This document shows, piece after piece, positions 2-5,152 of a stretch of DNA of 64,000 bases. Numbering within the stretch: position 1 is the first letter of the stretch; every line of letters starts with the position of its first letter. The DNA is taken from assembly GCF_001887355.1 (NCBI RefSeq), contig NZ_MPIN01000001.1, positions 1,031,932 through 1,095,931 on the forward strand, read 5' to 3'. Source of the stretch: Cystobacter ferrugineus. Lineage in GTDB: Bacteria; Myxococcota; Myxococcia; Myxococcales; Myxococcaceae. Below the pieces are notes generated by a model that saw nothing but the letters and a program-made list of their open reading frames with translations, searched no databases and was not told the origin of the DNA. A program made the position numbers and the translations under genes.

Positions 2-931
2 TGGGGGCGGCACGCGCTGTCCGCGCTGGTGGGCGTGGGGGGCGAGGCCGTGTCCGCCGCGGAGACGGCCGCGGCCTCCGAGGGCGAGCCCGCGTGGTTC
101 CGCGCGAGTGTCATGGCGATGGACGAGGTGCGGGCGTGGGACGAGCGCCTGACGATCGCGCCCTCGGTGCGCGTGGAGCGGGCGGGGCCCTACACGTTGT
201 GGTCGCCGAAGCTGGGCGCCTCGCTGTTGCTGCCCGCGGGCCTCGAGCTGAGGGCGAACGCGGGACGGGCCCACCGCGCGCCGTCCTTCCTGGAGTTGTA
301 CGTGCGCCAGGGCACGCTCCTGCCCAACCCGGCGCTGCGCCCCGAGAGCGCGCTGTACGCGGACGCGGCGGTGGTGCACCGCTCGGAGGTGTCCTCCGCC
401 TCGGTGGGGGGCTATGCGAGCCTCTACGAGGATCTCATCTCCTACGAGGCCTATCCGCCCGGAGCGGCCCGGCCCTACAACTTCGTCCGGGCGCGCGTGG
501 TGGGGCTGGAGGCCGAGGGCGAGTGGCGGCCCCATCCATTCCTCTCGGCCGCGTTGAGCTACACGCTCACCGTGTCGAATGATCTGCAACGCGACGGGCG
601 CTTCTACCTGCGCGAGCTGCCCTACCGGCCCCGGCACAAGCTGTTCGCGCGGGTGCTGGGTGGCCCCCGGTGGCTCACGGGGCGCGTGGAGGTGCTGGCC
701 CAGTCGGCCCACGCGCTGTCTCGGGACGGCGTGTTGACCCTGCCCGGCCGCGCCTTCGTCCATACGGGGGTGTCCAGCACCTTCGGCTCGCGCCCGGAGC
801 TCACCGTGTCCCTCGAGGTGCGCAACCTGTTCGACGCGCGCGCCGAGGACTTCGTGGGCTATCCCCTGCCGGGCCGCGCCGTGTACGTGTCCGTGTCGGG
901 CGCGTTCGAGCCGGGAAGGAAGACGCCATGA
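2..931 (+). CDS. TonB-dependent outer-membrane receptor, C-terminal part (5' end outside window)
   Basis: The frame is open from the first bases, so the gene begins upstream of the window. The visible 309 residues are the C-terminal beta-barrel of a TonB-dependent receptor. Signs are alternating aromatic/polar strands, the receptor-typical 'APSFLELY' and 'RNLFD' motifs, and a final strand near the stop ('AVYVSVSGAF'). It would sit in the outer membrane and import a scarce ligand with TonB-ExbBD energy. The next gene overlaps its stop (ATGA). A cobalamin riboswitch lies 1.7 kb downstream in the same cluster, so BtuB-like vitamin B12 uptake is the best guess for the substrate. The plug domain is not visible, so substrate is inferred from context only. 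Confidence 0.85.
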   Translation, partial: WGRHALSALVGVGGEAVSAAETAAASEGEPAWFRASVMAMDEVRAWDERLTIAPSVRVERAGPYTLWSPKLGASLLLPAGLELRANAGRAHRAPSFLELYVRQGTLLPNPALRPESALYADAAVVHRSEVSSASVGGYASLYEDLISYEAYPPGAARPYNFVRARVVGLEAEGEWRPHPFLSAALSYTLTVSNDLQRDGRFYLRELPYRPRHKLFARVLGGPRWLTGRVEVLAQSAHALSRDGVLTLPGRAFVHTGVSSTFGSRPELTVSLEVRNLFDARAEDFVGYPLPGRAVYVSVSGAFEPGRKTP

Positions 932-2496
932 CGCCGATGCGATGTGGAGGGATGGTCCTCGCGGTGCTCCTGTCCCTCGTGCTGGCGGGGTGTCCGGACG
1001 AGGGGCCGTTGTGCGCCGAGGGCCTGAGCGCTTGTGGAGACGCGTGCGTGGATCTCTCCAGCTCCTCGTCCCAGTGTGGGGCGTGCGGGGTGGCCTGTTC
1101 CGCCACGCAGCAGTGTGTCGAGGGGGCCTGTCAGTGCCGCGCGGGGGCGGTGCTGTGCGGAGGGGAGTGTGTCGTGACGGCGTCGGACCCGGCGCACTGT
1201 GGTGGGTGCGCGGGTGCGGGCGGCGTGGCGTGTGGCCCCGAGCAGGTGTGCGAGCAGGGCGAGTGCAAGGCCGCGTGCACCCTGGCGTCCTCCTCGCTCT
1301 GCGGGCGCTCGTGCGTGGACGTGCGGACGGATGCCTTCCATTGCGGCGCCTGCGGGAGCGTGTGCGCGGACGCGCGGAGCTGCCACCAGGGCCTGTGCAC
1401 GGATGACGTCGTCGCCGCGTGTTTCAACACCGGGCAGGTGGTGGGCATCCAGGCGGGAGCGGACGTGCGGGGGCCCGCGGTGCGGGTGGGCACGAGCCCC
1501 GTGTCCCTCGCGCTCATGCAGGACGTGCTGCTCGTGGTGGATGTCTCCTCGCGGCTGCTCCAGGCGCGGCTCTCCGATTACGGCGAGCTGCCCGCGCGCA
1601 CCCAGACCGGACAGGTCCCCAATCAGGTGCTCGTGCGCGAGCCCTTCGTCTACGTCCTCAACTCCACGAGCAACACGTTGCAGGTGCTGCGGCGCGACGG
1701 CGAGCCCGCTCCGGGTCCGGGTCCCCGCTTCCCCACGGGCATTTCCCTCACCAACGTGGGCAGTGTGAACTTCGGCGCCAACACCAACCCGTATGCCTTC
1801 ACCCTGGAGGGCACGGACGCGTATGTCTCGCTCCTCGGCAACCTCCAGGGGGACGCGTCCGCGGGGGGCCGGGTGGTGCGCGTCTCGGTGGCGGAGCCCA
1901 CCGCGCCCGCCATCACGGACACCTTCGTGCTGCCCTCGGGCGAGGCCCTGAGTCCCTTTCCTGGCCGCACCACGCTCCCCGCGCCCGCGGGCATCACCTC
2001 GCTCCAGGGCCGGGTGTACGCCGCGCTGGGCAACCTGGATGCGCGCAGCTACTCCGCCGGAGGCCCCGGGTTCCTCGCCCGGATCGACCCCGGCACTCGC
2101 GCGGTGGAGCTGCTCGCGTTGGGCGAGGCATGTCTCAATCCCTTCTGGGTTCTTCCCGTGGGCGAGCGGTTGCTCGTGAGCTGTGGCGGCGCCGCCACCT
2201 ATGACGTCGACTTCAACCTCACCGACGTCCGGGGCACGGGCCTGGTGCTGCTCGGCGCGGATGGCCGCGTGTTGGACTCGCTCGCGCTGGGCTGTCCGGA
2301 AGCGACGTCGTGTCCGCTGCCCTCGGCGGGACGCTTCGCCCTGGTGGGCCCGCGGGCCTACGTGGGCGACAACAACGCGGGCCGCGTCTTCGTCATCGAG
2401 GTCGTGGGGGACACGCTCGTGGAGCGCAAGGAATTGGCCATCTGTCCTCGAAGCTCGGGCCCCTCGCTCGTCAGTGATGTCATCGCGCTGCCGTGA
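928..2496 (+). CDS. Cysteine-rich beta-propeller surface lipoprotein (BtuG-like candidate)
   Basis: This 522-residue protein starts at the ATG that overlaps the receptor stop (ATGA), implying translational coupling. It has a type II signal peptide with lipobox LAGC at residues about 18-21. Residues 25-165 carry repeated cysteine modules of the form CG..C.D...CG.CG..C, common in myxobacterial surface lipoproteins. The rest is built from YncE-like blade repeats ('VLLVVDVSSR', 'FVYVLNSTSNTLQVLRR', 'RAYVGDNNAGRVFVIEV'), so a beta-propeller is likely. In Bacteroides, the propeller lipoprotein BtuG sits on BtuB and captures B12. The same receptor/propeller pairing next to a B12 riboswitch suggests a similar role here. 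Sequence homology to BtuG itself cannot be shown by eye. Confidence 0.8.
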   Translation: MTPMRCGGMVLAVLLSLVLAGCPDEGPLCAEGLSACGDACVDLSSSSSQCGACGVACSATQQCVEGACQCRAGAVLCGGECVVTASDPAHCGGCAGAGGVACGPEQVCEQGECKAACTLASSSLCGRSCVDVRTDAFHCGACGSVCADARSCHQGLCTDDVVAACFNTGQVVGIQAGADVRGPAVRVGTSPVSLALMQDVLLVVDVSSRLLQARLSDYGELPARTQTGQVPNQVLVREPFVYVLNSTSNTLQVLRRDGEPAPGPGPRFPTGISLTNVGSVNFGANTNPYAFTLEGTDAYVSLLGNLQGDASAGGRVVRVSVAEPTAPAITDTFVLPSGEALSPFPGRTTLPAPAGITSLQGRVYAALGNLDARSYSAGGPGFLARIDPGTRAVELLALGEACLNPFWVLPVGERLLVSCGGAATYDVDFNLTDVRGTGLVLLGADGRVLDSLALGCPEATSCPLPSAGRFALVGPRAYVGDNNAGRVFVIEVVGDTLVERKELAICPRSSGPSLVSDVIALP

Positions 2497-2597
2497 GCGG
2501 TCCTGATGGATGTGTTGCGTTGCACTCGCGGCGCCGTGCGTCACGGACAACTGATTTGACAAAGGTGCCTTCGCGACCGTATCCCGCTGGCGTCCTT

Positions 2598-2791
2598 GGT
2601 TCCTCCACCCGGTGGTGGAGGCTCGAGGGAACCCGGTGCGACTCCGGGACTGCCCCGCAGCGGTGAACGGGAACGAACGCTGTCAGAAGGCACTGGTCCT
2701 CGGGACGAGGGCTGGGAAGCGACGGCCGGTAGGAAGGGGGGCCCTCTCGAGAGCCGCCCGTGCCCGTGAGTCCGAAGACCTGCCAGGGACC
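2598..2791 (+). promoter_or_regulatory. Cobalamin (AdoCbl/B12) riboswitch
   Basis: The leader contains the conserved cobalamin aptamer blocks in order: GGTGCGACTCCGGGACTGCC near 2635-2654, CCGCAGCGGTGAACGGGAAC after it, GGCACTGG at 2689-2696, GCCGGTAGGAAG near 2724-2735, and a perfect B12 box AGTCCGAAGACCTGCC at 2769-2784. A closing P1 helix can be drawn between GGTTCCT (2598-2604) and AGGGACC (2785-2791). A second hairpin, CCGTGCC/GGCACGG (2791-2797/2802-2808), competes for the 3' side of P1 and may be part of the expression platform. It lies 156 nt upstream of the lipoprotein gene at 2948. It should repress the downstream lipoprotein genes when B12 is plentiful. Confidence 0.93.
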
Positions 2792-2947
2792 CGTGCCAGT
2801 GGGCACGGCCCATACCGGTGCTTCCGAGGGGGAGCAGCGGGTGTGCCATCGGTGCGTCCTCTATCGGGCCGCGTCCGAGCGCTCATTCCGCGTCCACTCC
2901 CCTCGTGAAGCCGTGTTGCGCCCGAGGGGGCAAGGAGCAGGACGCGG

Positions 2948-4222
2948 ATGATGACGAAGATGATGAAGTCGCGCTCGCTGAGCCAGGTCGTGGTGCTGGG
3001 AGCCGCGGCATTTGGATTGCTTGTGACGGGCTGCAGTGGTCCGGAGTGCGTGGATCGCTTCGACTGCCAGATCAACAAGGGGAGCCCCGGGGCGGGCAAG
3101 CAGTTCGTGTGTGAGGCCAACGTCTGCGTGGCGCGGGACATCGTTCCCGAGACTCCCGGGACCGGTTCGGACGCGGGGACGGACGCGGGGACCGATCCTG
3201 GAACGGACGCGGGAACGGACGCGGGGACGGAGCCAACGGCGTGCGCGGATCTGTCGCATGACGCGCAGCTCGGCACCCTGCAACTCCAGCCGGGCTTCAC
3301 CGTCGTCGAGTCCGCTCTCCTTGCCGAGAACATCGGTGCCATCACCGCGGTGGCGGGTGCCTCGGGTTCGTACACGGTGTACGGCGTGAACTCGGACAAG
3401 AGCGTCTATGCGCTTGGCACCTGGCCGAATGTCGCGGGCAGCACCACTCCCCTGTTCCCCGTCGTCGAGCCCAATGGGCCGCAGAACGCCTTTCCCAGCA
3501 ACTACCTCGTCAGTGATGGCGTCCGCCTGTTGGCGGGCTACACCCTGGCTGATGCCTCCGGCAAGGTGGCCGTCCACGATACGGTGACCAACGCGTCCAC
3601 GTACCTCGCCGCGAAGGGCAACTTCTCCGCCGTGGGACTGGACGGGGCCTTCCTCATCAACGGGCTCGATCTGGAGGGGGTGAGCGAGACGGGCAGCGCC
3701 GTCTATGCCCTCAAGACGCAGAGCACCCCCTTCTCGGTGTCGAGGCTGGCCACGTTCCCGGTCGCCCAGAGCGCCAGCGGTTTCAACGCGCTGACGACCA
3801 ACAAGATCGTCGTCCTCGGCTACTTCGGCGGCAAGAACGTCCTGCACGCGGTGTCCCCCGAAACGTACGCGCCTGCCCTGGCGGCGGGGACGAGCCTGGA
3901 CCTGTCGGGCGCCAACACGCCCCAGATCTACGCGGGGTCCGATCTGTTCTATGCCGCCGGCTTCGGGGCGGGGGTGGCGCTCCATCGTGGCGCTTATTCG
4001 GAGTCCTACGAGCAGCTCACCCATGACGTCGCGCGCATTTCCCTGAGCCCCGCGGGCAGCGATGGAAAGGGCGTCACCGCGGGAAACCTCGAGGTGGTCC
4101 TCTCCCAGAGCAATACCTGCACCAGCGTGGTGGCGATGGCCCCCCTGGCCGAGGATCTCCTCGTCGGCCTGGAGGACAAGAACGGCCGCCGGCTCGTGCG
4201 CCTCCACGCGGGGACGCCGTGA
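2948..4222 (+). CDS. Riboswitch-controlled surface lipoprotein with DAGT repeat linker
   Basis: This 424-residue protein begins at an ATG 10 nt after AAGGAG. It has a type II signal peptide ending in the lipobox LVTGC (cysteine near residue 28). Residues about 74-96 form a low-complexity DAGTDAGT/DPGTDAGT linker typical of myxobacterial surface lipoproteins. The remaining 320 residues are beta-rich and resemble a degenerate propeller ('SVYALGTWPNVAG', 'KIVVLGYFGGKNVLHAVS'). It is the first gene behind the cobalamin riboswitch and overlaps the next gene. A role in B12 binding or handoff at the cell surface is inferred from that control. No known domain was identified with confidence. Confidence 0.85.
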   Translation: MMTKMMKSRSLSQVVVLGAAAFGLLVTGCSGPECVDRFDCQINKGSPGAGKQFVCEANVCVARDIVPETPGTGSDAGTDAGTDPGTDAGTDAGTEPTACADLSHDAQLGTLQLQPGFTVVESALLAENIGAITAVAGASGSYTVYGVNSDKSVYALGTWPNVAGSTTPLFPVVEPNGPQNAFPSNYLVSDGVRLLAGYTLADASGKVAVHDTVTNASTYLAAKGNFSAVGLDGAFLINGLDLEGVSETGSAVYALKTQSTPFSVSRLATFPVAQSASGFNALTTNKIVVLGYFGGKNVLHAVSPETYAPALAAGTSLDLSGANTPQIYAGSDLFYAAGFGAGVALHRGAYSESYEQLTHDVARISLSPAGSDGKGVTAGNLEVVLSQSNTCTSVVAMAPLAEDLLVGLEDKNGRRLVRLHAGTP

Positions 4223-4917
4223 GGCGCCCGCTCGTTCCCCGCATGTCCGGGGGCGCCTGGCTCCTCCTTCCCGTGCTCGCCGCGGGCTGTGGGGGGCCTT
4301 CCCTCCAGGACGAGCCCCAGGCCCTCGCGGCGTGCCCGGCGGAGCCCCAGCCGTTCGCCGACCACGTGGTGTCCTACTCGCCCGGCCCGAACGCGGGTTT
4401 TGGCCAGGATGCCTTCCCCGGCATCGTGCTCGGGCCTCCCCATGGAGGGGGGGCGAGCGCGGGTTCGCTGGACGTGCTCTCGCTGGGCCGTGGGGGAGAA
4501 ATCGTCCTCGAGTTCACCGACATCGGCGTGGTGGATGGTCCGGGCGTGGACCTGCTCGTCTTCGAGAACGCCTTCAACAGCCCCATCGGTCCCTTCGTGG
4601 AGCGGGGCATCGTCTCGGTGAGCGAGGATGGCCAGACCTGGCACGAGTTCCCCTGTGCCTTCACGGACGCGGCGGGGGGGTATCCCGGCTGCGCGGGCAT
4701 CAAGCCCGTGTACTCCTCGCCGACCAATGGGGTGAGCGCCACGGATCCCGCGGTGGCGGGGGGTGATGGCTTCGACCTCGCCACCCTGGGCGTGCCCCGG
4801 GCCCGCTTCGTCCGTGTGCGCGACGCGGGCAACAACTCCAATGGCTCCCCCTCCTCGGGGTTCGACCTGGACGCCGTCGCCGTGGTGAACGGCTACGCCC
4901 TCTGCCAGACGCCATGA
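4219..4917 (+). CDS. Surface lipoprotein, 'GFDLDAV' cell-surface protein type
   Basis: This 232-residue protein starts at a GTG overlapping the previous stop (GTGA). The signal peptide ends at LAAGC (cysteine at about residue 24). The mature part has 'VDLLVFENAF', 'FVRVRDAGNN' and 'SGFDLDAVAVVNG', the pattern of discoidin-like, calcium- or ligand-binding secreted beta-sandwich proteins. It includes one CAGIK segment and several cysteines. The overlap places it in the riboswitch-controlled operon, so it probably works with the receptor and propeller lipoproteins in B12 acquisition. That function is inferred from position, not from a recognised catalytic site. Confidence 0.8.
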   Translation: MRRPLVPRMSGGAWLLLPVLAAGCGGPSLQDEPQALAACPAEPQPFADHVVSYSPGPNAGFGQDAFPGIVLGPPHGGGASAGSLDVLSLGRGGEIVLEFTDIGVVDGPGVDLLVFENAFNSPIGPFVERGIVSVSEDGQTWHEFPCAFTDAAGGYPGCAGIKPVYSSPTNGVSATDPAVAGGDGFDLATLGVPRARFVRVRDAGNNSNGSPSSGFDLDAVAVVNGYALCQTP

Positions 4918-5075
4918 CGCGACCGCTCCCTCCTCCCACGGATCTTCACCGCCGGCGCGTGCTGGGCTCACTCGTCCAGGGCACCTGTGCCCTGGCGGCC
5001 CCGTGCGCCGGCTGTGGCTCGCGGGAGGAGGGGGACTCGGCCGGGTGCTGCGCGGTCCCGCCACCCGTCCCCTGA
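4914..5075 (+). CDS. Small cysteine-rich exported peptide (53 aa), hypothetical
   Basis: A 53-codon frame starts at an ATG overlapping the stop of the preceding lipoprotein (ATGA), as do the other genes of this cluster. The product begins with a basic stretch 'LHRRRVLGSL' followed by a short hydrophobic segment and 'APCAGCGS', which resembles a Tat or lipoprotein export signal. It ends with a second cysteine pair ('GCCAVPP'). The coupling to the riboswitch operon is the main argument for reality; the short length and lack of a clear lipobox are arguments against. No function can be assigned. Confidence 0.4.
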   Translation: MTRPLPPPTDLHRRRVLGSLVQGTCALAAPCAGCGSREEGDSAGCCAVPPPVP

Positions 5076-5152
5076 AGACCTTCGCGACGGCCCGGGTGAG
5101 CGAGTCGGTGTGGATTTCCCGGGCACGCTGATCGTGTAGGCTGCCGGGCGCG

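Follow-up and report, generated by a model that had tools for sequence, protein, structure and literature searches.

We found that a locus at the beginning of a 64,000-nucleotide stretch of the Cystobacter ferrugineus genome (assembly GCF_001887355.1, contig NZ_MPIN01000001.1, positions 1,031,932 to 1,095,931 of the forward strand; referred to here as the window) combines a cobalamin riboswitch with genes for a TonB-dependent receptor, a propeller lipoprotein, and two further lipoproteins, LP1 and LP2 (Table 1). It is highly likely that this locus serves the capture and uptake of vitamin B12 (cobamides) at the outer membrane, is repressed by B12, and is a variant of the BtuB-BtuG-BtuH type. 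Sequence comparisons and structure models indicate that it is probably a variant of the system known from Bacteroides. The B12-scavenging kit of gut Bacteroides thus very probably exists in variant form in soil predators and in other phyla. BtuG was reported to be exclusive to Bacteroidetes (PMC6143338), and BtuH was reported mainly from Bacteroidetes, with three Firmicutes in addition (PMC8941943). A first-pass annotation of the window, made from the sequence, had proposed a BtuB-BtuG-like system undescribed in myxobacteria. The proposed system is well supported by the data below, and its novelty holds within the open-access literature searched, where we found no paper describing this locus.

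The riboswitch is one of three cobalamin riboswitches in the 12-Mb genome. Its aptamer scores 87.2 bits with the RF00174 model, compared to a gathering score of 31.5 bits, and covers the full model (positions 1-189). The first-pass annotation had recognized a clear aptamer with a perfect B12 box, and both were confirmed. It had also placed the riboswitch between a receptor-propeller pair and two or three lipoprotein genes transcribed in one direction; the placement and the common plus strand are correct, while the third lipoprotein gene proved to be something else (see below). A hairpin follows the aptamer directly and is a candidate part of the expression platform; similar hairpins were found in most of 12 folded leaders, all as single-sequence folds. 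Since the leader after the aptamer lacks a T-run, translation rather than termination may be controlled. Its position suggests that the riboswitch would control LP1 and LP2 in response to cobalamin.

This arrangement is conserved across relatives. We gathered 72 LP2 loci by protein similarity alone and found a same-strand cobalamin riboswitch upstream of LP2 in 52 of the 62 with enough upstream sequence; 49 of these lie within 2.5 kb, and the other three head an operon of receptor and LP2. Given a genome riboswitch density of approximately 1 per 3 Mb, the chance expectation is approximately 0.0004 per LP2 locus. A riboswitch also lies directly 5' of the receptor gene in 19 loci. Loci in Myxococcaceae typically begin with a riboswitch, the receptor, and the propeller and continue with another riboswitch, LP1, and LP2; in some, one more riboswitch-LP1-LP2 cassette comes next. 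In one locus (L079, on a contig shared with L116) a single riboswitch precedes LP1, LP2, receptor, and propeller. Myxococcus xanthus also has the homologous locus (L096). LP2 is linked to cobalamin riboswitches and to BtuB-like receptors in several phyla.

Among TonB-dependent receptors, the receptor is consistently closest in sequence to characterized BtuB. The complete gene (L004:16908-18863, 651 amino acids) extends 1,025 bp beyond the 5' edge of the window, with its start at window position -1024. Its best NCBIfam match is TIGR01779 TonB-B12 (1.9e-37, under the cut-off). In a phmmer search of PDB with the single sequence, Escherichia coli BtuB ranked best (1.5e-24), and the next family was FepA (2.8e-15). 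With a profile built on 15 of the receptors encoded at LP2 loci, the ten best PDB sequences were all BtuB (BtuB1, E. coli BtuB, BtuB3, and BtuB2; 6.7e-54 to 9.1e-45), followed by the colicin I receptor (2.6e-42). This profile takes in distant homologues; the single sequence ranks BtuB first as well.

The gene overlapping the receptor stop codon encodes a lipoprotein (lipobox LAGC, by eye) with a Cys-rich, MXAN_6577/STIG1-like N-terminal part (NF041328, 1.6e-44). AlphaFold2 predicts the remainder, residues about 160-522 (approximately 360 residues), to be a propeller of approximately 28 strands, equal to seven blades, with a predicted local distance difference test score (pLDDT) of 84. In a Foldseek search of PDB, the top seven chains were all Bacteroides BtuG (8okv, 3dsm, 8bn0, 8bai; E 1.6e-11). 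Searched against viral folds, the model matched only generic propellers. The predicted propeller may bind cobalamin and would probably cap the receptor. A related locus, L147, connects this propeller to BtuG by sequence. There, a riboswitch and a receptor are followed by a single protein consisting of a DUF5074 propeller (Pfam 1.1e-7) and an LP2 domain, the same architecture of propeller and LP2-type domain as in BtuG1 of Bacteroides thetaiotaomicron. The fusion protein matches BtuG1 (8blw_B) at 4.8e-10, and its propeller aligns with that of the window at 2e-7.

LP2 (lipobox AAGC, by eye) fits no Pfam family and matches weakly the NCBIfam model of the LIC_13355 lipoproteins of Leptospira, NF033170 (1.5e-10; 40.8 bits compared to a cut-off of 120), a model that is matched by 58 of 67 LP2 homologues. 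The first-pass annotation had expected B12-binding lipoproteins at this locus, and the clearest match to a protein known to bind B12, which it did not name, is that of LP2 to BtuH. The AlphaFold2 model of LP2 (pLDDT 90) had a sole Foldseek match below 1e-3 among approximately 350,000 PDB chains, namely 8blw_B from the B. thetaiotaomicron BtuB1-BtuG1 complex (1.5e-5). A structural aligner placed BtuH2 (7biz, 'B12 binding lipoprotein') first (Z 13.7, 155 residues aligned), ahead of the BtuH domain of BtuG1 (8blw_B; Z 12.7); the next family reached 9.8. For comparison of contact residues, we used the B12-contacting residues of BtuH2, which include Gln333, Asn399, and Phe401. LP2 residues Asn117 (conserved in 67/67 homologues) and Phe119 (63/67) possibly match Asn399 and Phe401, as judged from alignment ranges. 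Direct B12 binding by the BtuH domain was demonstrated previously (PMC8941943), and the predicted fold suggests that LP2 may bind B12.

Several of our results weigh against this interpretation. The receptor falls far short of the NCBIfam cut-offs for BtuB equivalogs (TIGR01779, 129.1 compared to 599.7 bits; NF007926, 108.4 compared to 836), and we therefore class it as BtuB-like, not as BtuB proper. The VIA structural aligner gives BtuG a Z of approximately 28 with the window propeller and other propellers higher values, up to 33.7, so that the propeller fold is secure while specific kinship with BtuG is only suggestive. Pfam DUF5074 is absent from this propeller and from each of 13 homologues, and its sequence profile reached BtuG in PDB only with L147 added (E 0.15). 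An LP2 profile found no BtuH chains in PDB by sequence at E up to 10, and LP2 is accordingly filed as BtuH-like only. The window genome contains cobalamin biosynthesis genes, while, among gut Bacteroidetes, non-producers are enriched in BtuH (PMC8941943). Finally, a search upstream of the receptor gene found no preceding riboswitch in this genome, so that the window riboswitch heads only LP1 and LP2. The close relatives L066 and L067 also lack the receptor riboswitch, and an FHA gene upstream ends 54 bp before the receptor gene in the window genome, making loss of this riboswitch in the lineage likely. In this genus, riboswitch control of the receptor and propeller seems to have been lost, given that relatives have a second riboswitch immediately ahead of the receptor gene.

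The missing receptor riboswitch would also fit a locus in which the receptor-propeller pair takes up iron as a siderophore or heme complex and riboswitch control of LP1 and LP2 has an unrelated purpose, as would the siderophore and heme receptor models that score with the receptor (e.g., MxcH, 7.5e-29). We regard this as very unlikely, given that BtuB is consistently nearest to the receptor, that 19 loci have a cobalamin riboswitch directly before the homologous receptor, and that all four genes stand behind one riboswitch in L079. A receptor belonging to a siderophore locus, which the first-pass annotation had named as a finding that would overturn its own proposal, is disfavored by the same evidence.

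The second alternative concerns LP2, which could be a carbohydrate- or matrix-binding lipoprotein of the discoidin/CBM32 type that is regulated by B12 by happenstance. The LP2 fold is common to CBM32, discoidin, and SUN domains (Z 8-10), and LIC_13355 was published as an adhesin whose recombinant form bound laminin and plasminogen, with B12 unmentioned (PMC11891782). The scores of BtuH2 and of the BtuG1 BtuH domain lie clearly over that background, the link with cobalamin riboswitches and with BtuB-like receptors is seen repeatedly across phyla, and L147 joins the LP2 domain to a DUF5074 propeller; we consider an adhesin quite unlikely. It is also unlikely that the locus takes up a corrinoid precursor or a cobalt complex, not complete B12. 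The organism has genes for the corrin ring and a riboswitch ahead of CbiM, making precursor salvage conceivable, and our data do not separate a precursor from complete B12. Against this alternative, the contacts of BtuH2 are mainly with the corrin ring and the nucleotide loop (PMC8941943).

Under the favored interpretation, B12 capture and uptake at the outer membrane, the BtuB-like receptor would be made together with the BtuG-like lipoprotein, its probable cap. At low intracellular cobalamin the riboswitch would permit expression of LP1 and LP2, and with plentiful cobalamin it would turn them off. At the cell surface or close to it, LP2 would bind cobamides and pass them on to the propeller-capped receptor. 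The inner-membrane step might run through the genome's sole FecCD-type permease (G000:C1:552707-553666, L158), encoded beside an ATPase and a BtuF/heme-type binding protein; this site has no riboswitch at the Rfam threshold. We considered that this system might be a heme transporter and rejected this, since the permease scores best to BtuC, which makes it a candidate for the step.

Compared with BtuB-BtuG of B. thetaiotaomicron (PMC10404256, PMC6143338), the locus shares a TonB-dependent BtuB-type receptor adjoining a seven-bladed propeller lipoprotein and a link to cobalamin riboswitches. It differs in the Cys-rich STIG1-like N-terminal part of the propeller protein, the lack of Pfam DUF5074, and a receptor-propeller pair without its own riboswitch. 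LP2 resembles BtuH2 (7BIZ) and the C-terminal BtuH domain of BtuG1/BtuGH (8BLW_B; PMC8941943) in predicted fold, as a lipoprotein, in its B12-riboswitch operon, and in its BtuB neighbor. In contrast to these, LP2 comprises approximately 190 amino acids without PKD domains, shows approximately 19-25% identity in structural alignment, and comes from a genome with B12 biosynthesis genes. BtuJ/DUF4465 accessory B12-binding lipoproteins are known from several phyla, including Myxococcota (PMC12751083, PMC13398666); the window genome differs in having no DUF4465 gene (PF14717, 0 matches; a Bacteroides control was positive). Earlier work treated lipoprotein-aided B12 scavenging as particular to gut Bacteroidetes, and finding a BtuB-like receptor, a BtuG-like propeller, and a BtuH-like lipoprotein linked to a riboswitch in predatory soil bacteria suggests an older origin or greater mobility. 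Our data further suggest that it also operates in genomes with B12 biosynthesis genes.

The LP2/LIC_13355 family is found in Myxococcota and Leptospiraceae and in metagenome-assembled genomes labelled Bacteroidia, Ignavibacteria, Calditrichota, and Planctomycetales. The likeness of LP2 to LIC_13355 lies in the matches of LP2 homologues to NF033170 and in a Leptospiraceae homologue (L157), which passes the cut-off, sits before a BtuB-like receptor, and is preceded by a riboswitch-like element (25.6 bits, under the 31.5 of Rfam). They differ in that LIC_13355 is an adhesin in the literature and LP2 of the window lies under the family cut-off. In deeper Myxococcota (L111, L117, L122, L124, L128), a relative of the LIC13354 exoprotein family (matches up to 1.7e-13, below the cut-off) stands between riboswitch and LP2, indicating that Myxococcota, too, have the Leptospira gene pair LIC_13354-LIC_13355, placed there after cobalamin riboswitches. 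In host-adapted Leptospira interrogans cells, LIC13354 and LIC13355 are upregulated together (3.77- and 3.72-fold; PMC3953431). From these family relations, LIC_13355 may have a role with B12, which bears on the interpretation of the published adhesin. A broader proposal has, in our estimation, about an even chance of being correct: LP2 and LIC_13355 would form a cross-phylum BtuH-type B12-capture family working with BtuB-like receptors and propellers, LIC_13355 would be foremost a B12 lipoprotein, and LP1 and an exported Rieske protein (see below) would be new corrinoid-handling components, perhaps in extracytoplasmic redox processing. The findings at this locus give two families so far without a function, LP2/LIC_13355 and LP1, a testable candidate function.

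Table 1. Features of the riboswitch locus, numbered by window position
Feature	Position	Strand	Remarks
TonB-dependent receptor, BtuB-like, 3' part	2-931	+	PF00593, 2.2e-23
BtuG-like lipoprotein, 522 amino acids	928-2496	+	4-bp overlap with the receptor gene, at its stop
Cobalamin riboswitch aptamer (RF00174)	2580-2801	+	Covariance-model score 87.2 bits, E 3.7e-20
B12 box AGTCCGAAGACCTGCC	2769-2784	+	Read from sequence and alignment
Hairpin CCGTGCC-AGTG-GGCACGG	2791-2808	+	Directly 3' of the aptamer; single-sequence fold
LP1, lipoprotein of 424 amino acids	2948-4222	+	First gene 3' of the riboswitch
LP2, BtuH-like lipoprotein of 232 amino acids, LIC_13355-related	4219-4917	+	4-bp overlap with LP1
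Tat-signal Rieske [2Fe-2S] protein pseudogene	4914-5131	+	5' part open reading frame 4914-5075; 3' part out of frame to 5131

LP1 (lipobox VTGC, by eye) keeps its position behind the riboswitch in relatives and matches no Pfam or NCBIfam family; its part in the system is putative. Its strand pattern looks propeller-like by eye. The first-pass annotation had named both this protein and the product of the gene at 928 for structural comparison with BtuG; the BtuG-like protein is the latter, and LP1 has no detectable relation to it. We rejected LP1 as a relative of the window propeller because profile comparison gave no match, and LP1 profiles (24 or 32 sequences) searched against PDB found nothing beyond a low-complexity linker. 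LP1, or LP1 together with LP2, is present in multiple copies in L070, L072, L080, L081, L084, L089, L091-L094, L097-L099, and L113, and the second copy often has an additional riboswitch in front.

The gene after LP2, initially read as a third lipoprotein gene at 4914, is a broken Rieske gene that is intact in relatives. Its 5' piece matches residues 1-52 of the intact 163-amino-acid L066 protein at 84% identity and its 3' piece residues 131-163 at 91%, and the middle, including both Rieske motifs, is gone. Intact genes are present in L066 (2348-2836), L067, and others, including L123 (8549-9085), whose product carries the Rieske domain PF00355 (3.6e-8). Overall, a Rieske gene lies 3' of LP2 in 24 of the 68 loci with enough downstream sequence.

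Of the other two cobalamin riboswitches of the genome, one (G000:C7:92789-93005, L006) precedes a class I ribonucleotide reductase, and the other (G000:C16:237114-237321, L005) precedes CbiM in a cobalamin-biosynthesis cluster with CbiD, CbiE/T, and CbiQ genes downstream.

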